This document shows positions 3,899 to 59,181 of a stretch of 64,000 bases of DNA, in pieces. Below the pieces are notes generated by a model that searched no databases, was not told where the DNA came from, and saw only the letters and a program-made list of their open reading frames with translations. The stretch covers positions 434,001 through 498,000 of the forward strand of contig JADNRV010000012.1 in assembly GCA_015499995.1 (NCBI GenBank), written 5' to 3'. This stretch comes from Flammula alnicola. Its lineage: Eukaryota; Basidiomycota; Agaricomycetes; Agaricales; Strophariaceae. Made by a program: the position numbers and the translations under genes. Within the stretch, counting starts at the first letter, position 1. Each line of letters opens with the position of its first letter.

Positions 3899-5977
3899 AT
3901 GCCTCTGCGATCAGGTTCATTGGTCTGCGGCCACTGTCAGAATAAACTCTTCTCCTACGAGCCTTTCCAAGCTGCATTATCTCCTCTAATTCACCCCAAG
4001 AGGGACTCCTCAACCTCAAGTTCGAAAGGTTGTTCGTACACGACACAAACCTGGGCGGAAATCGAGGAAGGCGAAGATAAAGGATGCAACTGGTGTGATT
4101 ACCTTTGGGATGAAATTCCATTTTGGTATAAAAACAAGAAGAAGAAGGAATTGCCAGAGCCAGAAGATACATTTCAAGTAACTGTTCGGTTTGAGAAATC
4201 GGATGTGAGGCAGCGCGTTTTGTTGAGGCTGATTATCGAGGACGACTGGGCGCCAGGTTATGATGTGTGTTGTAGCTCTGGTGCGTATTGGTACCTGTCC
4301 AAAATGGCATCAATGTTTTCGAGGAGCTTATATATTACGGGAATCACAGAGGACAATGCAGCAAGTATAATTCCAGAAAGGAATTTAATATGGCAGGTTT
4401 CATCTCCCAGGAGCTATGAACTGGCGTCTGCGTGCCTCAGCGAATGCACAAGTCTTCATTCCTGCCCCAAACCTGCGAGAGCGGCCCTTCCAACCCGTGT
4501 TCTTGACTGTGTCGACGTTAGAAGGCCCAAACTGCTAATCACTTCTGGCGCAACAGAAGGCTTTTATGTAGCGCTGAGCTACGTATGGGGCGAAGCGCAA
4601 CCACACAGCACATGCACTACCAACATCGCCAGATATCTTGATGGGATCGACGTGTCTTCCCTTCCCAAAACCATCCAAGATGCCATAAACTGCACGCACG
4701 AACTTGGCCTTCGCTATCTCTGGATCGATTCGCTCTGTATCCTGCAGGATTCAGCAGAAGACAAAGAACGCGAGATACCCCTCATGTGCGACATATACCG
4801 TAACGCATACGTGACCATCATCGCAGCCAGTGCAAGCAAGGTCAGCGAGGGATTCCTCCAAGATCGTCGAGAACCGGTTGACACAAGACTGCCCTTCTGG
4901 TGTCCCGATGGGAGGCAAGGTACAATCTCAGCCGAAGAAGAAGGAACAAAACCGACCGCTGGGGTCGAACAGGTAGATCATCGGGCTTGGTGTTATCAGG
5001 AACGCGTACTTTCTCCCAGAGCGCTGATATACGCCTCGGACACCCTCCGATATCGGTGTCAAGCCGTTGAGGATAAAGTAGGCGATGTCGCGTTCCATTT
5101 CCCTCCCGCAGTGACAGACGGATTACGACTACCGGACACCATGCATTCGACGAAACCTCCCAGCAGTAACACACTATCTGAGGAGGAATTAAAGACACTT
5201 CGGAGCGCTTGGTGGAAAATCGTGTCAGAATATTCCAAGAGGCTTCTGACAAACTCCTCCGACAAGCTACTAGCGATTTCCGGAATAGCCCAACTTTTTC
5301 GACGCTACTTTGGTAGCAATAATCGGTATATAGCAGGGCTATGGGAGCAGGACCTGTCTGCAAATGTTCTGTAGTACAGGTCCGACACTCATCAGACCCG
5401 ATCCATCAGACAATCTGCCACCGCTCTTACTCCTGCGACATACAGAGCGCCGTCGTGGTCCTGGGGCGCTGCAGACGGCGAGATCCAGCACAATTGCCTT
5501 AAGTTGAAGCCAGAGCAAATTTTATGGGAGATCAAGGAGCTCGTCATCGTCCCATTCACCGAAGGCCATCTTTTCGGCAGCATCAAGGGTGGTCACCTAT
5601 TGGTGAGCACCGTCGTCAGACCTATACTCTGGCAGGTATACAGCGGATACGCGGAGCTGTTTGAGTGCGACAATGCAGAAGCAGGGTGCATTGGCTATGT
5701 GTACCTCGATGGGGATTATAGCAGTGGAAAGAATTCAGAATCCGAATCTCCGCACAAGTTCTCTGGGTTTGCCGTTGTGGTGGGCACCTTGAAGATCGCG
5801 AAACCCATTCCGCAACTATCAGGTCTAATTGTAGTACCGACTGGAGACACAGAGGGAGAGTTCCGGCGAGTTGGAATGTTCCATGCAAATGGAAAGCTGG
5901 CAGCCGACGACGACGAAAATTTCTGTGAAATAGATGCCTGGTTGAGCATGCCCAGGAGGATTATTACGATTGTCTGA
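3899..5977 (+). pseudogene. HET-domain protein with an in-frame TAG at 5372-5374
   Basis: Intronless reading frame of 692 codons before the final stop at 5977, interrupted by one TAG at codon 492. The N-terminus has two CxxC pairs (CGHC, CNWC). The HET domain begins near residue 220 with ALSYVWG. It continues through LPKTIQDAI, LGLRYLWIDSLCILQD and the MCDIYRNAYVTIIAA block, then AWCYQERVLSPR. Such proteins trigger heterokaryon-incompatibility cell death in ascomycetes. Their role in basidiomycetes is mostly unknown. The frame before the TAG (3899-5371) and after it (5375-5977) is the same, and downstream sequence still carries the family's APSWSWGAADGEI. The TAG replaces the tryptophan usual in the LLWY motif, a single TGG-to-TAG change. 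A removing intron would break the frame. It is either a recent pseudogene, a truncated allele, or read through. Confidence 0.85.
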
Positions 5978-6726
5978 CCTCATATCTGTAATTAACGCAA
6001 AATTTGACATCTTGGAAGTCCCAAGAAAGACATATATAGTACTTATGCCGCGATAAGCTGAGTGTAAAGGTAGGCCAGAGGTAAGTAGCAAAACCAAAGC
6101 ACAATGGTAGTGATTTGGCCGACTGTCATGAGAGATAAGATTAGATCATTTCATCCATGATCACTTCATCCGTGTCTGCCGGAGATATATCATACATCTG
6201 GGCGTCCTCACGAACTGACATCGACATCGGCGCTGAAAAAATGCAGAAGTGAAGGATGACTTACACCTAGAGCTGACTTTGATAGATCTCAAATGCATCA
6301 TGTCGCCTTGGCTATAGCGACATTTTCACGAAGGGTCGACGTCGAGAGCGTACTTGTCAGAGTTAGGAAAGTGATAGACATGTATACGTTCAGCATTGCA
6401 CACGTCGGACTTTGACATCGAATTCACAAGCATACGTGGCTGCTCGGAAGGCTGGTGGGTTCGTGGGCACGCTATCCGCACTCATGAGTTTTGTCATCCT
6501 TCTGTCTGCGATGGATCATGATTGAGAAATCTCTGCCCTCATTGAGTGTAAAGAGTAAATGAGAGGTCTTTTAGTGGGAAGATACAGCCAAAGTAGAACG
6601 GTGTGCCAAAGAAATGCGACCAGCGTCGCATGGTCTTCTGTAACGAGACTCCATAACCTAACCCAGAGAAGGCGATAATTTCAGTCGGCTGCATGATCCA
6701 TGGGTAGTAGTAGATTAATCCAGTCT
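5978..6726. other. Intergenic, HET gene to ERV29 3' end
   Basis: No coding region is recognised. The two flanking genes converge here, so the stretch should hold both 3' ends. No repeat or RNA gene was seen. Confidence 0.5.
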
Positions 6727-7974
6727 TTAATACGTCTTCTTTTTCTCGTCCACAGAGAGACCGCCTACATAGCGCTGTGAGATATCGATACAGCGAACAA
6801 ATAACGCTGAACTCACCAGGACCCATGTTCACCAAGAGGATGAGACCGCCAACGATGGCTAGAAGTTAACAAATCAACAAAAGAAGACACAGGAAGAGCT
6901 TGAATGTCACGAACAAAGAGTCTGGAAGAAATCGTATCTGCAAAATTCTTTAATCATCGTCCAGTATTGACAAAACTGAGCTACTCACTTTAAGAAATCG
7001 CGCTGGGGATGAGCAGAGTTCACACTCCACCAGTTGTTTGCGAATACATTGAACACGCTCAACACAAGAACCAGGAAGGCAGCCGACCATTTGGCCTTGA
7101 AGCCGACGGCAACCATAACACAGGCAGCCAAACCAATAATAGATACGAAGACGCGAATGATGCTCCATTGACCCTGGAGCATGAAGCCCAGGAAAAGGAA
7201 GATCAGTAATACACGGCCTGCAAGGAGGAAACTGAGACAACATGTTAATACATTGGGCGCTATCAATAAAAATAATGGTTTACTATTTCTTGCGGTCGGT
7301 TTCGCTGATGCTGGGCAAACCAGCAAAGAGCGCTTTTCTTGACACCATCGAATCGCTGAAAACCATGAAGAGCCCACCGATGACGCTGAGATTCCGGAGG
7401 AAGAAGTTAAGGTCGAAGATGAGGCCATAGCCAAACCCTTGAATGATGACGACACCAAGGAGGCCACCAACGGCGTATTCTGTGTGCTTCTTGAGGATGA
7501 CAGCACCAGAGCCTACGAGCATGACCTTGTTGTCGAGGTAAGCATTAGACCTTTTGGGCCAGTCGAAAGGTTGTGCTTACAATAACATTGAGAATAAGGA
7601 AAATATGTGAGATTCCCCATGGGAAATGGCGGTGTCTGCCTTCGTTAAGCGTCTTGTTGGCATGGGTGTTTGCAATAATATACGCACTGCTGCAAGTACC
7701 AAATCTGATCACCCCATTGAGTCATGATTCTCAATGCATCCTCCAAGAACGTAACCACGATGAGGAAACGACCAATTGCCGGCAAGTGGGGTTTCAATGG
7801 TTGAGAATAGATTTCGACATTATCCTCGACTGTCTTGCTGAGAGCGCGGAGCTTCTCGAGCGGGTCGTCAGGGTCTGCAGCTCTGTAACCCGAAGATGGG
7901 CGAGAGTTAGAGAGACCATGGGGGTCGACATTGTAGTTGGCTTGAGGGCGAGCGATGCTAATTCTCGACGACAT
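6727..7974 (-). CDS. ERV29: ERV29/SURF4-family ER cargo receptor
   Basis: Multi-pass membrane protein that packages soluble secretory cargo into COPII vesicles at the ER. It has about seven exons with short introns. The start is MSSRISIARPQ at 7974. Family blocks are LPAIGRFLIVVTFLEDALRIMTQW, HFPWGISHIF, the GLIFDLNFFLRNLSVIGGLFMVFSDS segment, AGRVLLIFLFLGF, FNVFANNWW and FQTL-SIVGGLILLVNMGPGG. The last splice joins MGPG to GGLSVDEKKKTY and a TAA at 6727-6729. The protein therefore ends in K-K-T-Y, a dilysine (KKxx) COPI retrieval signal typical of this family. Because that tail sits on its own short exon, the unspliced reading would miss it. Orthology is clear; individual exon edges are by eye. 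Confidence 0.93.
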
Positions 7975-43425: not shown

Positions 43426-46400
43426 CTACGTTGAACCGTGCTTTTTTCGTGCTACAACTGGCGCGTTCACCGAGAAAAGGCCACTCCTAATCCAAACCTT
43501 CGACAGCAGTGCTTCCGTGACCGTGTCAGCCTTCAACGAGCTCCTCAAGTCACTACAAATGTGCCGAGACTTCGAAAATGTGCGCTCCACTGATACACTG
43601 GTGGCTGGTATTGCCAAAAAGTCACGGGCCATACGTGAGAGGGTAGGAAATGCGGCGCCGTGAATCTGGTACAATAAAGAGGTGTGAGTAAAGATAGAGA
43701 TCGTGTTGCACAGCTCGAGGCTTACCTTCCACCATGCCAAAGGATCAAGAATCTCTCCTCGGCCACCTTCAAATGCCAAGTATCGACGCAACTCTTCTTT
43801 AAAAAGATCACCCGGTGTCGTTGTCGATGGCACTGCGGAATATTCGAACTCGCAGATACTTGCAAGCCATCCACTATTCGAGGCTTCGGCGGTTGATGGG
43901 GTTGGCGGTTCAGGGTCTGAAGGCGGTGGTGGTTGATTTTCGTGGTACGTCTGTGCGACGTGGGTGAAGAGAGTTTCGGCTCTCAAAACCGCTTCTTTTT
44001 GGACTTTTTTCAGGTCGTCGCCCTTTAACGTTGGCGTGGGTCGAACTGTATTTTTGAACCATTCGGCTCGCATATACGGATGCAAAACTGGATAGGCATG
44101 GTGTCAGAGAAATGCGGCAAGAGGTAAGAATTGAGACACACCTGTTCCAATAGCATAGAACTGATTTCCATCAGCAATCTTCTTGTACTTGATCAGTTTC
44201 TCATACGCCGTGGCGGCACCATTGCGGATGAGCTCGGGGGCTGACAGGTTATATTTTGTAGCTTGAAGATGGCGATCTATGTTCTCGTAGACGGGGAGGA
44301 CGAAAGGAATGGTCGGGCGCGATGACATAGACATTTGCGCTGTTGCATGGGTGAAAACCTATGTGACACATGATGAGAATAAACAGGGACATATCGATGA
44401 GTTGAATGGCGCATACCTCGAGAACGTCCGCAATCTGTCCAAGGAGTTTCCAGTCTGCAGAACTTAGTGTTGCACTGCGTAGTTCCTCTGTATTGAAGAC
44501 CCAAGTATCAATCACCTTCAACGACAATTAAAGCATGAATGAGAATATTTATTCTGGGGAAAAAGAAAACCCACTGGTTTCAGTAACTCGCCACGCCGTA
44601 TCATGGCATGGGTGTAGTTCCAGCGAGTCTTCACATCACGCACTACCATGAGTTTGGAGCGGCGGTCATTTACTTCGTACTTGGCTCGGGCAATTTTGCG
44701 GAACTGGAGCCTACGCTGTGGAGATGACACAATTTTGGTTGTTATAAATCGTAGCTAAATAGTTATCAGCTCAATGAAAAAGGGCAATAGCAAGGGTAAC
44801 GTACTCTTTGGATTGCACTCTGGCCTCCGATAGCCTCCATCTCATCATCATCTAATTTGTCGAAGTCGAGATCCATTGCATCGCCGCCAGGAGAGACTTC
44901 CTCGATCTCCTCGATCTCCTCATTCTCTAAGGCTATTTGATCTGGGTCAAGGTCCACGTCGTAATGAATGGGAAGATCTTTCATGAGTTCATAGTAATCA
45001 GTTTCTGGAGTAGGAACTGCAGCCTCGTCGATGGCGGCAAGAAAAGCCTGCACAATAAGATTAATAACGTGGGCAATGCAGCGGATATGCATATCAGGTG
45101 TAAAGGGAATGCCATAGCGTGCAAGGATGCAACGACCGGCCGTCTTGACAATAACTTCGTTGACTGTTGCATTGTCAGTCGTAAGGCTAATGAAGTAAAG
45201 GTTTCGCAGCGGTAAGAGAATGGATCATGATTACGTGTGTGTGACTCATCTTGTCTAGCCCACCACGCTTTCTCGCACCATTTACAAAAGCGAAACCTCC
45301 TTGTACACCACCATGTTCCTTGTCTTCGAGCGGCTTAAAATCCACGACACGTTCAATCAGATTCCAGTCATCATCAATAAAGGACCCAATGGTGCATGCA
45401 AATGTGTAGACCATTTGCTTTGTCGTCCAGGTGTCAGTCGAGTACGCAATTTTGGACTTGACCGCCTTGAAAACATGTAATGTGAGTTAGAGAGTTCCCG
45501 GCCATTTTAATAAAATTTCTTACCGCAAATTCACGCACTACCTTTGTATGCAGCTCTGCAAAGATATGGGTTAGCTGATTACGGACTGTTGTGTCAGACG
45601 GCAGCATGAATTTGATTTTGAGGTAGCGGAATAGAATATCAAGGGAGGGAGCTTCTCCGGTGGTCCATGGTAAGCTTTCATCGAGAATCCATGCAGAGAA
45701 GAGCCGTAAAAATCCCTTCTGATTTGCTTCAATTGCGGGATTCAGGTCGCCTGCTTTCAAGTACTCAGCCATTAGCTCAGCACTCCTCTTGAGGTTCATC
45801 TGGTCGGCCTTTGGATCATCGCCTTCATGCGCTGTATTCTCGTCAACATTTCGTTTCTTGCACTCCATATTGTGGGTGGCAAGGTTGTTGAGCTTCGGGA
45901 GGACAGGCTCATCATCAAATGTGATATCCTTTCCCTGAACGGTACGGTGAAAGGTACGAGTCCTTTTAGTGAAAAATTAGCATGGTCCTTAACTCTTCGC
46001 ATTGGCGTAGCTAACAAGGACTTACGCAGAGCAAAATTTGCATTTAAATTCCCATCGCTTCGCTCCACTTTTATCTGTGGTCGGGGTAGGGTCGTGATAG
46101 GACTGCATACTTGCGTTTGCCGGTCCACGTCGTCCATATTTTGCACTTTCACTTTCCTGCACAGACCGGAGAGCAGACTGTCCATCGGACTCGCTTCCAG
46201 AGTCCACGTTGTAAACAGGCGCTGTACTTCTATTTGATTTCTTCACACTTTTGGCAGACGGCTTTGCCTTTGTAGAATTGGCCTTTGCCCGGTGCTGCTC
46301 CTCTTCAGAACGAGCTTTCTTTGTTTTCTTTCGCTCAGCCTGCAAGTAGATTTGTTTGCTATGTTATGCAGTGCCAGAATATGAATACTAACGCACCAAA

Positions 46401-46862: not shown

Positions 46863-46870
46863 GCGTCGGT
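46863..46870. repeat. Left target-site duplication of element B (GCGTCGGT)
   Basis: Eight bases identical to 53464-53471, directly abutting CAAGGGGGTACCG. In the hAT gene these bases encode part of N-R-R. Confidence 0.92.
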
Positions 46871-47003
46871 CAAGGGGGTACCGAAACCTTAGATATTACC
46901 TGACGTCGACAAAATATTTAAGGACCTGGCGGATGACCCACCCTCCATCGTAAGCATTACATAACGATCAATATGTCCTAATATAGTATATACGATCAAT
47001 TTA

Positions 47004-50000
47004 TCATCCAAGGCGGCGCACGCGCTTGGCCGCACGCCCCGCACCATCGGAAATGCATGTTTCGCACATCCAGCCCCTCGGCGCAATATCCAAACCAACA
47101 CATTCGAGATGATACTATCCATAGTTAACAAGAAATGTTATGAAAAAAATTAATAAACGGTACGTACCCATTTTGTAACACACTTTGTGTTTTTACATTG
47201 AACTGTTCCTCCATCAGGATGTACCTCTGCGTCTTTATCGCATGTACACTTCTTAAGCTCGGCAAGGTTGAATCGAGAATGAAGGGTCCTTCTCTGTGGT
47301 CGACCAGATGGTCCGAGGATGGGGACTTGTGGCAGCTCCAAGGCCATGGGAGCGTCAAGATCATGTGGGAAAGGCACGCGAGAATCCAAAATGGATGCTG
47401 CCGTTGCTTGTGCTGAGGGCGATGGCGCAGCGCCAGCGTCCAGAGCAGTGTTCTCAATGGGTGGGAGGACCTGGTTGAGTGGTTGTTCATCACCGTTATA
47501 ATACATGTCTAAAATAGACTTTAATTAGGATAGTAGATTAGTTAAAATGAGAAAATGGTACCGTCGTCATCATCATGGGGCGCCGGCGTGGCTGAACCAC
47601 TATCCTGATGTTCTGGTGCAGCTGATGTATCTGTCTAGACGATAGTAAATGAATTAGTGCGAATGCAAGATAACTGAAGATATTATTACCTCGGGTTCTT
47701 GAGCATCATTTCCATCCGACTCATTACTGTTCTGGTCAGAGTCTGAGACATGCTCGTCATCCTCATCAGCTTCGACCTCGGCTGTTGATGTCGCCAGCGC
47801 CACAGTCGAAGTATGCGCTTCCGAAATCACTATCTTCTTTGCTTCCTTCGCCTTTCCAGGCCGGCGCACAACAGTGTTGCGCCGGTCCCTCCAGAAGGAC
47901 ATCATCTGAGTGGTTTCAAACTTTGTAAGCTCCCAAAGTGGGGCATAGCGAGCGAGCGATGCGGATGGATGTTTCGATAGGATGTGGGATCGGAGGTTGT
48001 ACTTCCACACGGCTGGAGACTGCTTATCCGGGCAGATAGGACATGTCACAGGGACATTTGAGCAGGGAGATGTCGAAGTGGACTCCGCGGCAACTGTATA
48101 ACGAAAGACCTGCCAGTTTCCGCATCCCGAAGAGCGGTGTGTATTTACCTTCGTCTTTCCGCCAGCGCCACGTGCAAGGAATATCCGACAGTGCGAGGAC
48201 GAGCGAAGGCAGAGCCCGCACGGCTCGTCTTCTCGGGTGATGTTCGGGTCGAAAAGGACATGGGCGCCTATATGTTCGAGTGCTCGTTGACCAACTTTGG
48301 TGCCAAACTCGAAGCTGGGAGAGCAGAGCGAGCAGCTGTTGGTTGTGCCCTCGATGTTGTCGAGCTCCGAGGTGGCTGAACGGCAGGAGAAGCAGGATTT
48401 CCCTGTGAGTCATATAAATAAGTATCAGTAACAATAAGGTTGCAAAATCGTACCAGTATGTTCGCGGTATGGAAAATTGTCCGTGTGAGGGATGCGCGCA
48501 AGCTCCTTGATGTTATTACTTGTTAACTGGCCAAGAATCATCGCCGCTAAGCCCACGAGGAAGGTCCCTTGGAATAGATAGAACATTTGACCTATTCCTC
48601 GCGACACAAACTCCGGATCCATTGCTTGGATATACTTCCCTGGGACATGTAGCGTGAGCTCCTTGATTCGATACGAGCGCCAGTCATTCTGAAGAGAAAT
48701 ATCATCGTCGGAAGTAGAGGGACGTAGACCAAGAACCTGAATTGAGACGGTTATTTTCTCGAGCTCGTAAAGGTCTGCTTGTGGGACTGCGGTAATGGCG
48801 CTGTCGGAATTTATCTTGATGCCATTGACCTCGCCAATACAAAGGAAGAGGTGATCTTGACATCTGACAACCGTGGCGACAGGGTCTTGAATTACGAGCA
48901 AGGGTTGACTGACACTTGAAGGTGTGGTGCCATACGCGCTTGAGAGTGGCGTGGAGCCAGCATAGCGTTCCACTTCTTGAACGCGCTTCAATCGATCAGT
49001 TGAGCTGGGGCCATCCTTTCCCAGCCGTTTTGAATACAGCGAGAGAGCGCGAGACTTGAGCATGCGCGTGCCTTCAAATTCAATGTGGCGGTCGAATTTA
49101 CGGCCAGAGTCTGCGGTCTGGGATAGTACGGTGTCACCATGATCCTGCTCAACAAATGAGTCTTCGATTTCCACTCGGTTGTCGTCCAGCTCATCAGAGA
49201 TAGCAGAAGGCCGGTGTGGCCGACTGATTTCCTCAAGATCGAGGCTGTCATCCTCTCCTGCTTCCTCGGGCGTCAGACGAAACAGAAGCTTTCCGCGTGG
49301 TGCAAGAATATGGTGACTTCCCTTTTGTTCCAACGCCTCCAGAATCGGAGCCGCAAATGAGCAATCTTTCTCAACAAGATGACGGCCACGTCTCCACGCT
49401 GTCAGGAGTGTTACATTCTTGACATATACATCGCCCTTCCACGAGGCCGGCTTGATATGATCCACAGTGTCGGGCAGTGTTTCAGATGAGCGTGTGATGG
49501 CAGGGAGCTTCAGCCGTCGAGGCGCGCGGTCCCACTGTGGGTATTTGGCCAGGATATTCGATACTTGGGTGGTTCCCGTAAGGCGAGATGCTAGCTGATA
49601 AATATCGAGGTTTGAGTCGTTCCCGACCATGGTACGCAAGATCCCAAAGAGCTCTTCAAGACGATCAGTCCCTAACAGAATGACAAAGAATTTGCCATTG
49701 GGGTCGTCGATCTTTGCTTTGGCGACACAAAAGAACACGTTCTTGATCATAATGGCGAGGTCTTGATAAAGGAGAGTCGGCATGAAATCCTTGCCATTGT
49801 CATAGTAAAGAACAAGCGCCAAATGAGCCGCGGCACTCAGGTGCTCAAGCTGCTCACTCAATGAGAGCTCGGTGCACAGGTAAGGGAAGATTATGTGATA
49901 GAGAAGTTTTCCCAGAGTGCAGAGTGCATGTCGAGCCGCGAGAAAAGAGGGATTAGAGTGGGTGGAGAGCATGGGAAGGGTCCAAATATCCTTCAGCAAG

Positions 50001-52631
50001 TCAAATGCGAGCTTGACATCCTGTGAGTCGTCCGGCTGGAAGAGCGAGTTGATATGAACTGCTGAGTGGCCTTCTGACTTGAGATGATTGATAATAATAG
50101 CGGGCGTGATGCGGAAGTCTCGTATAACAATTCCGCGAGCGCGAATGGCATAGTTCCGAATGCGTTTATCCACATGTTTCCAGTCCTTGTCGGCGGTAAC
50201 ATCGTCGTTTCCCGTGTGGAAGTCCATAAACGTCAAGTCCTTGAGAATTTCGTAAATAGGAGAGGTCTCCTCTAGCTGCTTCTTGAAGGTCATTTGCACC
50301 AGTGACGCGCCTCTCCTCGTTTCGCCATCTGATGCAATAGATACAATGCGAAGTCCAGTCTTTTCTTTGAGCCCGTCTGCAGCATCGAAGACGGTTTGTA
50401 TAACTTTAGCATGCTCGGCTCCGGTTTCTCTCTTACAATCGCCGGATATAAGGATTGGACGTCCAGCATAGATGCGCGTGTCCTCTCCGAGGAGACCAAG
50501 AGCAGCGACAGTGGCCTATATATAGACGTACATGTGAGAATCTATTTTTAATGTGAGACTATCTGAGTGAACTCCCCTCGGCGGCATAGTGAACCTCTCC
50601 TGTTTCCAGACAGTTGAACAGCTCCTTCATGTCGTCAACAGTGCTGAATTCAAGTGCTGTCCTCTTCCCGTGCTCCCGACAGACTCCCAGAAAATTGTTG
50701 GTATGATCATCCCAGCGTATACGTTTCTCTGTTGCAATCTCATCAAACATCAGAACTTGATGGACGACCTTTCGCGAAGCAAGAATCTCGCCAATGCTCT
50801 CGAAGCATGCGTCGATATTTTTGGTGACTTCGCTGACGGCTGGCGTGGAGTGGGAAGGAATGAGAGGAGGCATGATGGCGCGGTTTCGAAGCGTGGTGAG
50901 TGCAGGTAGTCCGAGAGCACGGCTAGCAATCCCAGCTATTCTGTTTCCCCCTAGCAGCCACAGCAACAGTCCCCGCATGTCATCCTCTTCGCTGAAACTC
51001 TTTGGATGGTAGATCCCCTCCGCCGCTCTGTGATAGAGCTCTAGTATTGCTCGGATGCTTCGATTCTGCTTTAATGCAACCCGCACTAATCGTTCAACAT
51101 TTCCCGCCTTTGCGCTGGCAATTGCGACCATGAAACGCTTGAAACCATCGAGTGCAGCGGAGCGGGTAAGGATAATTCTTGCTTGTGTCAAAGCCTTGGT
51201 TCGTAGATGACTGATTTGCTTGTCTTTCCGACGCAGGATTTCGAGAAGGCCAAGCGTTCCGTGAAATGCATAGCCTGCATTCTCGTTGACACCGTCGACA
51301 AGCCTCGTGACAATTCCCTTGAGCATTCCGTGCTCAGCCAGGGCAATACAATTGCTACAGGCATGGCTTCCCGCGGCGGTAAATTTCTTGCAGCTCCACG
51401 CACGAAAGATGATCTGGTTGATTTGGAACTCGAACGTCCATGGGAGGGTGTGCGAGAGGTGAAGCCCCACTGGGTAGAGAGCATAAGGCGAGGAATTTGC
51501 AGGTAATGTGATGATATATCCCTCGCATTTGGCTCGCTTGCTAAGAGCAGTAGAATGCTGGATAATGTTCCTAGTGCTAGCAGCCTCGACAATTGGAATG
51601 GGGGCCGGGGCTTTTGCAGAAATGACAGAGCGTGTGACGGGATGCGATACTGCTAGTGGCGGCTGCAATATTGCTGCGGGGTACCTAAAATATTGGTGAG
51701 TACATGGGCTGATAGTAGTATTCGACGGAAGGCTTACATTGAGCGCAGACCAGACATTAAGTGCGCCAACTTTCCTTCAAACAATGCCTCACTCACACCT
51801 CGTTTCACGACGAAGTATTCGACAAAATAGGTCAGGCCCATCATTCCGCACCCATCTGTTTCACGGAGGGAAGGTACGTCCAAGGTTGTTCCCCATCCCA
51901 GACCGTTTTTCATCGCACCATTCAAGACCTCTTCCCACAGTTCTTCAGGTGAAAACATCTTGTTATCGTAGCCTGCTGGATCCACATCGAAACAGGCAAG
52001 AGGGTCTGGCTTTAGAACTTCAAGCGCACGGCGATGGATATCGTCACACAAACTCCTTGCTAGTAGCTTGAGTGAGCCCACGAGATTTGTAGGTTCCGCA
52101 GGCACGTCTACAGGTGCTGTGTCTGCAGGATCATCTGCAGTTGCAGGCACGTCCACAAGCACTACATCTGCAGGATCATCTGCAATTTCAACCGCCTTGA
52201 CCGAAGAACCAACGATCTCGATAGAGTGTTCACGCGAAAGGGTTGATGTCATGTCGACGCTGCTGTGGCATGGGGATTTGCCGACTGTGTCTCTTGGCGC
52301 AGGGTTACTCGGTAGGGGCGCGGGCGCCTGAGTGGTCGAAGGTACGGGTGTTGGCTTTGATTTTAAACGACTGAACATTGACAGTATTGACCCATTCTTC
52401 AGCCCTTTATTTTTGTCCTTCTTCTGTTGACTGTCGAGACATGTCTTCTTCCCCAAGTGAGTTTTCTGAACATTTTTCCATCCTCCAGGGCCACATTTGA
52501 TTCGCTCTTTGCAGGCTGGGCACACAATACGACCATCTGCGCCGACAGGCAGTCCCTTTATTCAGTTATTAGTTTCCGACTATTGTTACTAGGTACAATT
52601 AATTGAATGAACTTACATCGTCTGGCTCCAT
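47004..52631 (-). CDS. Very large multi-zinc, PHD-finger protein of element B; candidate transposase
   Basis: The only gene of element B, about eight exons and roughly 1,700-1,750 residues. Exon 1 is just MEPDD (52631-52617). A C2HC-like finger follows (CPACKERIKC, then HLGKKTC), then a linker rich in Pro, Ala and Asp. Residues near 590-930 may form a DDE core: VLMFDEIATEKR, IVSIASDGETRR, DWKHVDKRIRN and DRLEELFGILRTM. The last resembles the D-x-LE-x-x-F block of P-element/THAP9 transposases. Further on are a CxxC-x18-CxxC ribbon (SCFSCRS, CSLC) and PCGLCLR. A BED-like finger follows, CPICP with H-x4-H in LRSHILSKH. The C-terminus is a PHD finger (CTC, CKNTKC, YHLEC, WMCETC). I recall the PCGxCLR and SSPCSNVPxxCPxCP blocks from many uncharacterised agaricomycete proteins. 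No in-frame stop was found. Catalysis is inferred, not shown. Confidence 0.82.
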
Positions 52632-53026
52632 TAATTCAGTTGCTCACGTCAATGGCAGACAAGATCAAGTATAAGGAGAATGCAGGAGTAGTCAGAGAGC
52701 AAGAGACGGCTTGTAAAATTTATTCCGCCATTCTCGATCACTTCCGCTACTGTGATGGACGCTGCAGTGGGGGGTCTACATGTAGATTGCAGCTTGTGCC
52801 ATAGGATTTCAGTACTTTTCATTGATTATGCCATGCTTAAATCGCTCCATAACGCTCTATTTAGCACGCAAGATTTTATTTGTCCGGAAAATAGCCTTGT
52901 AAATCGATAGGCGCCCAGAACGCGCGCTCAAACATAAAGCTTGGGAGAAAGCCGTATGAGATTGATGCGTGATTGGGGTCATGTGACATTCCCTTTCCGG
53001 CGTCATTGACTGTAGGTCAGCTTGTA

Positions 53027-53258
53027 CTGTACTAAATCAATCAATTCGGCGGTCACAGGTCACAGGCCTACTCGATTTGACGAAAGGTCACAGGGGTCAC
53101 ACTAAAAATCCCCAAAATCCCCATGGAACGGTCGTTCCGGGCATCAAAAAGCTTACAAATCCATCAAAATATGCCAAATATAGTAATTTGACGAATTCAA
53201 AATTTCGTCAGTTGGGTCACAGGTCACACCTACTGATGAATTGATTGATTTAGTACAG
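53027..53258. mobile_element. Element C: mariner-like MITE inside element B
   Basis: A perfect inverted repeat starting CTGTACTAAATCAATC begins at 53027 and its complement ends at 53258, 21 bp on each side, with TA at both outer borders (53025-53026 and 53259-53260). TA duplication and lack of coding sequence fit a Tc1/mariner-derived miniature element of 232 bp. The interior has several copies of GGTCACAG (for example TCACAGGTCACAGG and GGTCACAGGGGTCACA), arranged in both orientations near the two ends. No second copy was found in this window. Confidence 0.75.
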
Positions 53259-53463
53259 TATGTGGTCCCTTCGACAGTTCAAGGTGTTTGAAGGTTACTA
53301 GACACCTCTATTGGTCAATATAACATGTAAAATATGCTATAATGTGCCTAAAATAGCAGTATACGGTTAAATATTAAGTACACATTACAAAAAATTTAGC
53401 GGCCTGGCGGCCGACCCTCCCTACCTACGTCAGGCCCGGCATTGTAATCCCGGTACCCCCTTG

Positions 53464-53471
53464 GCGTCGGT
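53464..53471. repeat. Right target-site duplication of element B (GCGTCGGT)
   Basis: Eight bases identical to 46863-46870, directly after the right TIR of element B. Confidence 0.92.
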
Positions 53472-55131: not shown

Positions 55132-58100
55132 ATGGCCAAATCAAAGACGCTAACACCCCAGGAGATCTACCGACAACGAAGACAGCGGGAAGAGAGCGAG
55201 AGGACCGCATACTTGCCTCCTGGGCTGATAAACCATGGCAATACTTGCTTTATGAACTCGGTTTTACAAGGTGTAAGTCATCTTTTATTCGAGAACTATG
55301 TATCTTATTTACATTGTAATCGCGTAGCTTATAGCAACTCGCCTGCTTTCCGATCTTGTCCATTTCAACCCCATACCACCCGAGATCCAGATGGCTGCTT
55401 CAACACCGATTGTCTCGAGACGATCACCACAACTCACCAATGGCCATAATCTGGCCGGAGCATACGAGCAGCCATGGGTCAACAGCATGCCTATTGGCGA
55501 CATGTTTCTCACTGTCATGTACAAGGCATGGGACAGTCAGGCGGCGAGGAAACGAGATATTCTGAGTCCCAAGTGAGTCTGATATTACTTTTGATATGTG
55601 ATATACTAAAGCTCATTATCAAGGCCTGTCCTTTCCGCCCTAGGCCAAAAATACGATCAGTATTTGGACTTTGCGCAACAAGACGCCCATGAATTTTTGC
55701 GAATATTACTAGATGCAATGCGTATGGAAGAGCAAGATGTGAGTTCAGCTTTGCAAGAGTTTCTCCGAATTTTCTGCCGTTCATCATTCCATTTTTGCGC
55801 CATCAATAGACCAGCGCGTTGTTATCTATTCAATTGCCAAAACGCTAATGGGCTTACTTTGGGTAGATCATCAAGAAGCGCCAGCCGCCGCCTCCACCGA
55901 ATCACCACAAGAAACGACGGCGAACCACGATTACCCCAGGAAACCTCAATGACCCGCCCACCGACCCTTCTTCACAAAACAACGGCGATGCACCGCCGGA
56001 GTCGGACCTCCCGCTGCTCTCATTCGCCGACATGATCTTCGGCGGCCAGCTGACGAGCATCCTCGTGTGTCAGAAATGCAAGCACGTGTCGCAAACATAC
56101 GAGGAGTTCAACGACATCAGTCTGAGCATCAAGGCCGAGGACTACTTCCCAAACAACCGCAAGCGCGATCGCTTCAAGAAGATCGTCGGGCGGCTGACGC
56201 AGTTCCCGGGGAGCAGTGCGAGTCAGTCGAACCATCCTCACAAGGCGCACGCGAAACACCTGCCGATCACGACTGCGCATGCGGTGGAGATGTTGCGGTC
56301 GTCATCGGTCCCGCCGAGCCCGCGCACGGAGAGAGATGGGATGCAACTGCAGGCGGAGCTTCTTATCGTCGAGCCGAGAAGGAGGAGCTTGGACGTGCCA
56401 GTCGGAGGAGCTGAGTCCGGCCCCGATTCACCAGAAATACCCTCACAAGCACCTGCTGCGCTGCCAGCGGAGGTTCCCGACCAACACGGCCTCGAAGCCC
56501 AACAGGAGAAGACATCGGATTCACGAGAGGACGACGGCACTCTGGACTCTGATAATTCGCATGTCATTGTGAACATCACGGGGCCGGAGGACAAGCACGT
56601 AGAGTTTGTCGAGCCGAAATCGAGCAGAAGGGAGAAACACGAAAGTGCATCAGCTGCGCCTGCGACGGAGAAGGACAAGGACAAGGAGAAAAACCAAAAA
56701 GATGATATAGGGTGGGCCAAGATTGGACGGAGGATCAGCTTAACGGTTGGATTGGGGCGGCCTAAGGATAAGGACAAGAAGGAGAGGGATAGGAAGAGTC
56801 GGTCTATGGATCGTAGCAGCCTGGGGGTCCCGGATTCGATCAAAGAGGACGGCGTCCCGGATATGGCAATGCAGAAGTCGCTTTCTGCAAGCGCAAGTAT
56901 CGCCAGCACGCCGTCGATAGTGGGCGACTCCGCCTCTTCGGTGAAGAGCAGAGTTTCTTCTGATAGCGCTGCCATGCTTTCGCGGACAGTCGCGTCCGAA
57001 TTTGCTAGTTCTTCGACCAACGGCGTCGCATCGAGCTCCTCCTCAACCAAGCAGCCCAAACCTCTACCACCTCGACCAACACTTTCAAGTACGTCAGTCC
57101 CAACGATCAGCAGGTCGTCGTCACCCCAGCCATCTTCTTCTCAACAACAACTCTTGAGCGCCGCTCTTCCAGCAGCGGGTCCCTCCACATCCATCTTCCC
57201 TAACGTCCAGCGTTCCAAATCTCCGAAACCACCAAAGCCCAACGCGGCAGAGACCGAATACCTTCGCAAGATTCTCGCCGACATCTCTTCATCGCCAGCG
57301 TCGAATAATCCTTTCGCCATCTTCAAGCCTCCAATGCTGCACAGTCATACGAGTCATCACTCTACCCATGCGGGACTGGCGGGGGCGGGTGGCGCGGGGC
57401 TGTCAACTGGAGGGACAGGTTTCGAGAAGGACAAGGAAAAGAGCACGACATGGTTAGGGATCGGCATGCGTAATTTCTCCGGCATCGAGGAGTGTTTGAG
57501 GATGTTTACGGCGGTCGAGGTGCTTGATGGGGAAAATATGGTTGGCTGCCGGCGGTGTTGGAAGATACAGAATGGCGTGTTGCATACGTCGAAGGGCAAG
57601 GATTCTGATCATGAGGAAGAGGAGGACGAGGACGAGCAAGGAGAACGGGTGTCGCCGCTGCCACCGCCACCACTACACACTGTAGATGGAGGTCCTGCTG
57701 TGAATGGGGTCGCGCAACCTGAGGAGTTCCCACAGAAAGGACGCCTGGCGTTGAAGATTCTCGCACCGACTACCGCTACACATATCCCTACATCACTCTC
57801 TACACCAACGGTATCTTTCTACTCGCATGCCAACACGAGCGACACTCGCTCCGTGTCCTCTCTGCCTACAGAAGCCACCTCCACCTCTGAAACGAGTTTG
57901 CTCGAGGACGCGGACGAGGATTCTCCGCTTTCACTGTCTGTTATCTCTGAATCGAGTGCGCGGACGCGTAATAGTGGTCCGAACGACACACACCCTGGTC
58001 CTGGTGGGATGCCCATACCTATGATCTCAACTACCGCTCCGCCGGACACGCCCAAAGACTCTTCCATGTCTTTCAAATCACACTCGTCCTCCGTGGCGGC

Positions 58101-59181
58101 TGAGAACCGGGGGACGCAGGATCGTGATCTGCCTTCTACTGCCCCTCCTGCCGTACTAAATGCACGCCCACACCTGGCGCAGGCGCTGAATGGATATGAC
58201 TCTTCGCCGGGGTCGAAAGACTCCCTAGTGATACCCCAGATCAGGAAACCCAAGTTACAGAAGAGGAGGATCTCATATTCGGACACGACGACTGATGATA
58301 ACGATAGCTCGGGCGACGAGAGCGATACGTCAGTGGGTACGTCGATGTCAGCAGATTCAGTTGTGAGCCGGCCGAATGGTATGGTCACAAACCAGAAACC
58401 CCCAGTGCAGGCAGCGGCAGCAGCAGCAACAGCATCGTCGTCGAAACAACAGGAACAGCCCCCAGCAGCAGCGCCAACGCCGCAGAAGAAGCCCTCAAAG
58501 CCCAAGCCTGTTATCATGCGGCCCGCGTACAAACGCTATCTCATCGCCACCCCTCCTCCAGTGCTAGTCGTCCACCTGAAGCGGTTCCAGCAGACCTCCA
58601 AGACGCCTTTGATGTCGTTCTCGCACGGGTTCAAGAAGCTGGACGACTACGTATCTTTCCCGGAATATCTCGACCTGATGCCTTTCCTCGCCCCGAGGAA
58701 AGAGGACTATGGACTCGGTAAGAAAGGCAAAGATAAGGAGAGGAAGCACAAGGCGAAAGATGTGCGGTGCATGTATAGGCTCTACGCTGTGGTGGTGCAT
58801 ATCGGGAATATGGTCCGTCTTTTTAATGCCTTTTTGAGAGAGTATTGATTTGGTACTTACCTACTGTGACTTTTCTAGCTTGGCGGCCATTACATTGCAT
58901 ACACTGCCCTTCCTGCTGACTCCCCTGTCCCACCACCACCTCCGACTGCTGCTAATGGTGCACCGGAAGGGACCTCTGCTGCTACTCCTGCCACCAACTC
59001 CGCGGATAATGCTGGAGGAGACAAGGAAGCCTCCAAGACGCCCATGCCTGAGCCTGCTCATCATCATCCCAACCCAGCAGAGCGACAGTGGGCCTATATC
59101 AGTGATACAGTTGTGCGGCTGACGACACTGGAAGAGGTTCTTCATGCAAAAGCATATATTTGTATGTACGAGCGGTGCTGA
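55132..59181 (+). CDS. Ubiquitin-specific protease (USP16/45-like) with a huge disordered insertion
   Basis: Cysteine deubiquitinase. The start is MAKSKTLTPQEIYRQRRQREESER. The Cys box is GLINHGNTCFMNSVLQG, followed by PIGDMFLTVMYKAWDSQ and YLDFAQQDAHEFLRILLDAM. A zinc-ribbon part is seen in LVCQKCKHVSQTYEEFNDISLSI and CRRCWKIQ. The late core is PPVLVVHLKRFQ, the MYRLYAVVVHIGNM strand and, after an intron at about 58813-58879, the catalytic His in LGGHYIAYTALP. The protein ends WAYISDTVVRLTTLEEVLHAKAYICMYERC, which resembles the USP16/45 end. The long exon 56032-58810 carries about 700 residues of Ser, Pro and charged low-complexity sequence between catalytic boxes. The ORF shadows on the minus strand there are not genes. 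Three 5' introns and one or two 3' introns. Confidence 0.92.

Follow-up and report, generated by a model that had tools for sequence, protein, structure and literature searches.

A 64,000-nucleotide stretch of the Flammula alnicola genome (GenBank assembly GCA_015499995.1, contig JADNRV010000012.1, positions 434,001 to 498,000 of the forward strand; hereafter, the window) holds a 6,593-bp element, at 46871-53463, in which one giant gene lies between short inverted repeats. What kind of mobile element is this, and what does its protein do? An earlier reading of the DNA, made without database searches (the sequence-only reading), had called the superfamily unclear. We now assign the element to the P superfamily: as judged from the predicted fold of its protein, it is very probably a DNA transposon that moves by cut and paste and belongs to a fungal branch whose transposase is giant.

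The element, its copies, and its insertion site

The 13-bp terminal inverted repeats (TIRs) and the exact 8-bp duplication proposed by the sequence-only reading are both present, without a mismatch. The 13-mer CAAGGGGGTACCG occurs at the two ends of the element with 0 mismatches and at no other site in the window when up to 2 mismatches are allowed, and the duplication GCGTCGGT is exact. The boundary features are as follows.

46863..46870, no strand: target site duplication, left copy, GCGTCGGT; single copy in paralogous empty sites
46871..46883, plus: terminal inverted repeat, left, 13-bp CAAGGGGGTACCG (13-mer search)
53451..53463, minus: terminal inverted repeat, right, 13 bp (13-mer search)
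53464..53471, no strand: target site duplication, right copy; single copy in paralogous empty sites

The element's two flanks, joined with one GCGTCGGT into a 400-bp query, were searched in the genome. The empty site is present at four other loci (C124 twice, 100%; C179, 99%; C290, 93%, 393/400 bases), and two half matches given by the same query are the occupied site itself. Since the empty sites contain a single GCGTCGGT, the element inserted precisely into an older repeat, creating the duplication. The older repeat may be a copy of a hAT transposon.

Across the 74.4-Mb genome, CAAGGGGGTACCG has 39 exact matches, versus 1 for a reversed control pattern. Fifteen facing pairs account for 30 of these matches; 3 pairs are long (6,593, 6,357, and 7,996 bp) and 12 short (737 to 776 bp), and exact 8-bp duplications, all different, flank all 15, the set on which duplications were scored. 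These end and duplication counts are far beyond chance. Other copies with the same TIRs and different duplications, which the sequence-only reading had put forward as a check, are thus present. Six unpaired matches (C211, C431, C529, C612, C778, and C854) are short forms that, by alignment, contain stretches of both element ends; C203 is a decayed 2-kb fragment, and C181 and C573 match one end only, over 68 and 31 bases, respectively. The left 380 bases of the element are found at 27 places in the genome. To these bases the 12 paired short copies are 88 to 93% identical, and they therefore derive from a related, non-identical long copy. Recent movement is thus evident for close copies and short non-autonomous derivatives, every one of which made an 8-bp duplication. 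Two decayed copies, C100 and C203, are 92 to 93% identical and have stops within the reading frame.

The gene

The single spliced gene of about 1,700 residues seen previously proves to encode 1,740 amino acids in eight predicted exons on the minus strand, with no internal stop.

52617..52631, minus: exon 1 (predicted); start codon, MEPDD
51738..52555, minus: exon 2 (predicted); zinc module CPAC...H...C of the N terminus, then a low-complexity linker
50595..51684, minus: exon 3 (predicted); helices matching the DNA-binding helices of P transposase, and first catalytic strand with D592
48454..50515, minus: exon 4 (predicted); bulk of the RNase H core, including D704, D752xxH755xxK758xxRN, and E928, together with the helical insertion domain
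47690..48402, minus: exon 5 (predicted); zinc ligands in three sets, C1352 C1355 H1372 H1376, C1390 C1393 C1400 C1422, and C1449 C1452 H1468 H1473 (presumptive grouping into sets)
47562..47634, minus: exon 6 (predicted); linker
47168..47508, minus: exon 7 (predicted); linker, then the PHD-like finger's first half (CTCDKDAEV...C...C)
47004..47114, minus: exon 8 (predicted); YHLECVGLDIAPRGWMCETC, the PHD-like finger's second half, stop

All of the motif blocks named by the sequence-only reading are found in the spliced protein: FDEIATEKR at residue 591, IASDGE at 701, DWKHVDKRIRN at 752, TDRLEELFG at 924, PCGLCLR at 1389, and CSNVPVTCPICP at 1442. In the database, the partial protein BDZ97DRAFT_1652701 matches best, with 100% identity across the region searched. 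Relatives of about 55% identity cover residues 16-275, about 310-1529, and the final finger. A 55-base intron within exon 5 was considered and dropped because the relatives' frames are open through that stretch.

Catalytic core and superfamily

On the basis of fold and profile, the central region is predicted to be a P-type RNase H core split by an all-helical insertion domain. The predicted fold is P-like rather than unrelated to RNase H, in keeping with the resemblance to P/THAP9 transposases that the motif blocks had suggested. Residues D592, D704, D752xxH755, and E928 align to D230, D303, D339xxH342, and E531 of the fly enzyme and are kept in 71 to 73 of 73 rows; the exon table places their codons as follows.

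50742..50744, minus: catalytic D592 (counterpart of D230)
50327..50329, minus: catalytic D704 (counterpart of D303)
50183..50185, minus: D752, which opens the D(2)H signature (counterpart of D339)
49655..49657, minus: catalytic E928 (counterpart of E531 in P transposase)

A D-D-E triad and a D(2)H signature are described for the P superfamily (PMC8230255). Here, these residues occur with an RNase H core that has a helical insertion, an 8-bp duplication, and TIRs. The THAP domain (PF05485) was not matched in residues 1-104 or exon 2 at E values up to 1, nor in five homologues at E values up to 0.1. The features of the superfamily are found, the THAP domain and intact GTP pocket of the animal proteins are not, and the element is filed in the P superfamily but outside the animal P/THAP9 family.

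The closest well-studied system is Drosophila P (6P5A and 6PE2), with which the fungal element shares the 8-bp duplication, the split RNase H core with its all-helical insertion, the D-D-E triad, and a D(2)H signature with identical DxxHxxKxxRN spacing; the second D and the E are separated by 224 residues in the fungal protein and by 228 in the fly protein. Unlike the 751-residue Drosophila enzyme, however, the 1,740-residue fungal protein has no detected THAP domain, and it carries a PHD-like finger as well as zinc modules at either end. The fungal ends also differ (CAAGGGGGT, with only 13 bp perfect), as does the GTP pocket, in which K385, K400, S409, and D444 are replaced and F443 is partly kept. 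THAP9 and the animal THAP9-like P proteins share the catalytic core by profile (the comparison alignment, A2, combines P proteins of insects and other animals with relatives from metagenomes) but differ in the THAP domain, size, and accessory domains.

Divergent relatives and the protein family

Beyond the three long copies, the genome search found loci C501, C641, C157, C357, and C490 at 54 to 55% identity, C738 at 37%, C545 and C127 at 29%, and fragments. Eight loci (three fragment loci being skipped) were searched for 7-, 8-, or 9-bp direct repeats beside inverted ends, with no end sequence supplied. Six of the eight (C501, C641, C157, C357, C490, and C127) gave a bounded element, one candidate each and always with an 8-bp repeat, and the ends of all six, CAAGGGGGT or CAGGGGGGT, are of the CA(A/G)GGGGGT type. 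The inverted repeat of C127 is about 130 bp long with one mismatch, compared with 10 to 16 perfect bp in the 55% relatives, and a 679-bp C127 derivative at C326 has a copy of GTTGGACC on either side. A looser search of C738, C545, and C127 again ranked the same C127 element first. Behind it came weaker pairs that look like chance, although one (10/14 end bases matching) also lies beside an exact 8-bp repeat. Within this genome, then, homologues do lie between inverted repeats, at six of eight divergent loci and in a single short member of the 29% family.

The window protein gave 230 database matches and the 1,055-amino-acid frame of C127 gave 207; both searches scored only part of the candidates, and the two sets may overlap. 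Among the 120 matches listed for the window protein, the named organisms are all agaricomycetes and no protein is named a transposase; the same holds for the 120 listed for C127, which include Crassisporium, Ganoderma, Trametes, Coprinopsis, Schizophyllum, and many nameless metagenome sequences. In the C127 subgroup, 101 of the 120 listed matches are at least 950 amino acids long, and with C127 itself they make 102 rows; ten signature positions were checked, and every one is conserved in 101 or 102 of the rows. The profile of this subgroup matches that of the first subgroup with an E value of 1.2e-86. Profile scans found no relative among viral contigs (89 pattern matches) and none among plasmids.

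These results suggest that a large family of agaricomycete proteins are transposases. The sequence-only reading had argued that the element's boundaries would give an orphan agaricomycete family this function, and the bounded divergent loci of this genome support that proposal. A large set of agaricomycete proteins would thereby gain a likely function, in a superfamily studied mainly through Drosophila P and THAP9, and the element, with its defined ends and short natural donors, is a candidate transposon tool for mushrooms. As a separate matter, the core of the C127 element (L053, 4382-4720) weakly matches the Pfam 5-hmdU DNA kinase (E = 0.0026, below the cut-off) in a stretch that overlaps the catalytic region; this match is probably due to chance.

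Accessory zinc modules and subterminal blocks

The sequence-only reading had also described several zinc modules outside the core. Residues 17-44 carry CPAC...H...C, found as a loose pattern in 23/26 homologues of over 1,550 amino acids and, in a stricter form, in 27/40 homologues of another set, and twelve zinc-type ligands in residues 1352-1473 are kept in 36 to 40 of 41 rows. The model of the C-terminal zinc region is fairly confident (pLDDT 81.2) and had no match in the PDB at an E value of 0.001, so "several zinc modules" remains a description only. Exons 7 and 8 encode a C4HC3 ligand pattern (Pfam PHD PF00628, E = 0.029, below the cut-off); PF23011 was matched in homologue P0048 with an E value of 2.3e-5, just under the cut-off. 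The strict C4HC3 pattern is present in 14/40 and 8/26 homologues of the two sets, and the gene models of the remaining homologues may be cut or misspliced.

Three further features lie near the ends of the element.

46922..46950, no strand: subterminal block GGACCTGGCGGATGACCCACCCTCCATCG, loose direct repeat of the 53402-53426 block (by eye)
53402..53426, no strand: subterminal block, partner of the 46922-46950 block (by eye)
53027..53258, no strand: nested short inverted-repeat element, 232 bp, lying upstream of the start codon; TA duplications, ends CTGTACTAAATCAATCAATT

A script found no exact 9-mer direct repeat in the subterminal regions of the window family, where the GC-rich blocks were seen by eye only. 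By eye, these blocks occupy places that match those of GTTAGTTAGTC, an exact direct repeat in C501, C357, and C490 that lies about 40 bp from the 5' end and 65 to 80 bp from the 3' end.

The GTP pocket

In the fly enzyme, GTP is contacted by K385, K400, V401, S409, F443, D444, N447, and D528 (PMC7776569). The fungal equivalent of K400 is D in 68/73 rows, and that of S409 is K, R, or H in 61/73; these two replacements are secure because they adjoin the invariant V401 and A404. The other three replacements sit in less certain parts of the alignment: K385 is G in 54/73, D444 is Y, R, or F in 58/73, and F443 is L in 34/73 and F in 29/73. V401 and D528 are conserved in the fungal proteins, and N447 is unaligned. 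From these sequences, we predict that the fungal enzymes may carry out strand transfer without GTP. Since several pocket residues differ while the catalytic residues do not, these proteins offer a natural test of the need for GTP in P-type strand transfer. A broader proposal is that mushrooms harbor a large unrecognized P branch that combines GTP-free strand transfer, a P-type core, zinc modules, and a histone-reading PHD finger, such that the GTP dependence regarded as typical of P elements would be confined to the animal lineage. We put this forward tentatively and consider it rather more doubtful than probable.

Weighing the alternatives

Several observations weigh against the P-superfamily reading. 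The Pfam P model, PF21787, matched the window protein with an E value of 0.032, under the cut-off, and matched four of five homologues at 0.0063 to 0.097 and the fifth not at all. A PDB sequence search with exon 4 and the 73-row profile returned no transposase, P transposase included. Homology therefore rests on predicted fold and profile, and the C127-subgroup profile matches animal P proteins more weakly (E = 2.3e-5, probability 76) than does the first subgroup. No bounded element was found at C738 or C545 in the same boundary search; at C738 there is a single CAAGGGGGT end about 120 bases downstream of the last exon and the gene starts near the contig edge, and for C545 the looser search gave only chance-like pairs, with no detectable ends. 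The exon borders are predictions set from open frames and relatives. Only one of the three long copies, that in the window, has a whole reading frame, and even there the label "apparently intact" fits the coding exons, which are whole, and not the region 5' of the start codon, where the nested 232-bp element lies (it is absent from the long copies at C113 and C201).

Might another superfamily move the element, its P resemblance being a shared RNase H fold only? KDZ transposons (Kyakuja, Dileera, and Zisupton) are fungal DNA transposons with large cysteine-rich transposases, and some produce 8-bp duplications. hAT elements usually do so as well, and KDZ elements are present in Agaricomycetes (PMC12730594). 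The P-specific signature speaks against a hAT or Zisupton-type origin, which we regard as very unlikely; no KDZ family was among the Pfam matches of the window protein and five homologues, and no solved KDZ fold was listed for comparison. Less likely still is a domesticated host chromatin protein, with PHD and zinc modules, that merely lies near inverted repeats. Some homologues do carry the name "Zinc finger PHD-type domain-containing protein," and catalytic residues stay conserved in some domesticated transposases too. Three near-identical copies between the same ends with different duplications, empty paralogous sites, and divergent copies with their own matching ends are all at odds with domestication. 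The copies and empty sites refute it for the window copy, and individual homologues elsewhere may be domesticated.

A third possibility, compatible with the P-superfamily assignment, is that the element is now dead and its copies are remains of an ended burst; this is plausible, if somewhat short of an even chance. Relative to the window copy, C113 has 20 substitutions and C201 has 9, at 26 distinct positions, of which 26/26 are transitions and 22/26 fall at CpG or its decay products, as expected from methylation and decay. This pattern suggests that the host methylates the element's DNA. Frames are broken in 2/3 long copies by 1-bp gaps that may be real or assembly errors (C113, 50747 in exon 3, with another at 50577 in an intron; C201, 51899 and 51894 in exon 2 and 50966 in exon 3), and the nested element upstream of the window gene points the same way. 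Against extinction stand the one whole frame, the small number of substitutions, and the perfect duplications of 15/15 pairs. An intron of C201 also holds a 1,640-bp insert with a poly-T head and repeated AATATCTTCAG (L018, about 5655-7283), which is probably a LINE.

If the element is a P-superfamily transposon, the N- and C-terminal zinc modules of its transposase would recognize subterminal sites at the element's ends, for which the subterminal blocks are possible candidates. Its DDE core would cut the ends and join them to target DNA 8 bp apart, and the short 0.74-kb copies would be mobilized in trans. The PHD-like finger might read chromatin, steering or restraining insertion, and strand transfer may proceed without GTP, unlike that in Drosophila.

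Related elements and neighboring sequences

Transib/RAG1-type target duplications are 5 bp long, and the Transib transposase and RAG1 match the fungal protein much more weakly. The KDZ transposons of mushrooms differ in that the fungal protein has no KDZ family among its Pfam matches. P elements of rust fungi (P-1_PSt, P-1_MLP, and P-2_MLP, in Repbase) were reported in 2011 as P elements of Dikarya, with 8-bp duplications (PMC3164196), so a basidiomycete P element is not itself new; compared by description, they share with our element the superfamily, the Basidiomycota, and the 8-bp duplications. In an incomplete literature search that did not extend to Repbase, fungal P elements were found only in that report, with none from Agaricomycetes, and the term "P element" is absent from the main text of PMC4226871 and PMC9281073. 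Given the limits of the search, agaricomycete P families may already have been named somewhere.

Close to the element, a hAT dimerization domain (E = 1.2e-16) lies at window positions 43429-44103 on the minus strand. On its other side, a 993-amino-acid frame at 55867-58848 on the plus strand matches ubiquitin carboxyl-terminal hydrolase (E = 3.7e-13) and is probably a host deubiquitinase gene.
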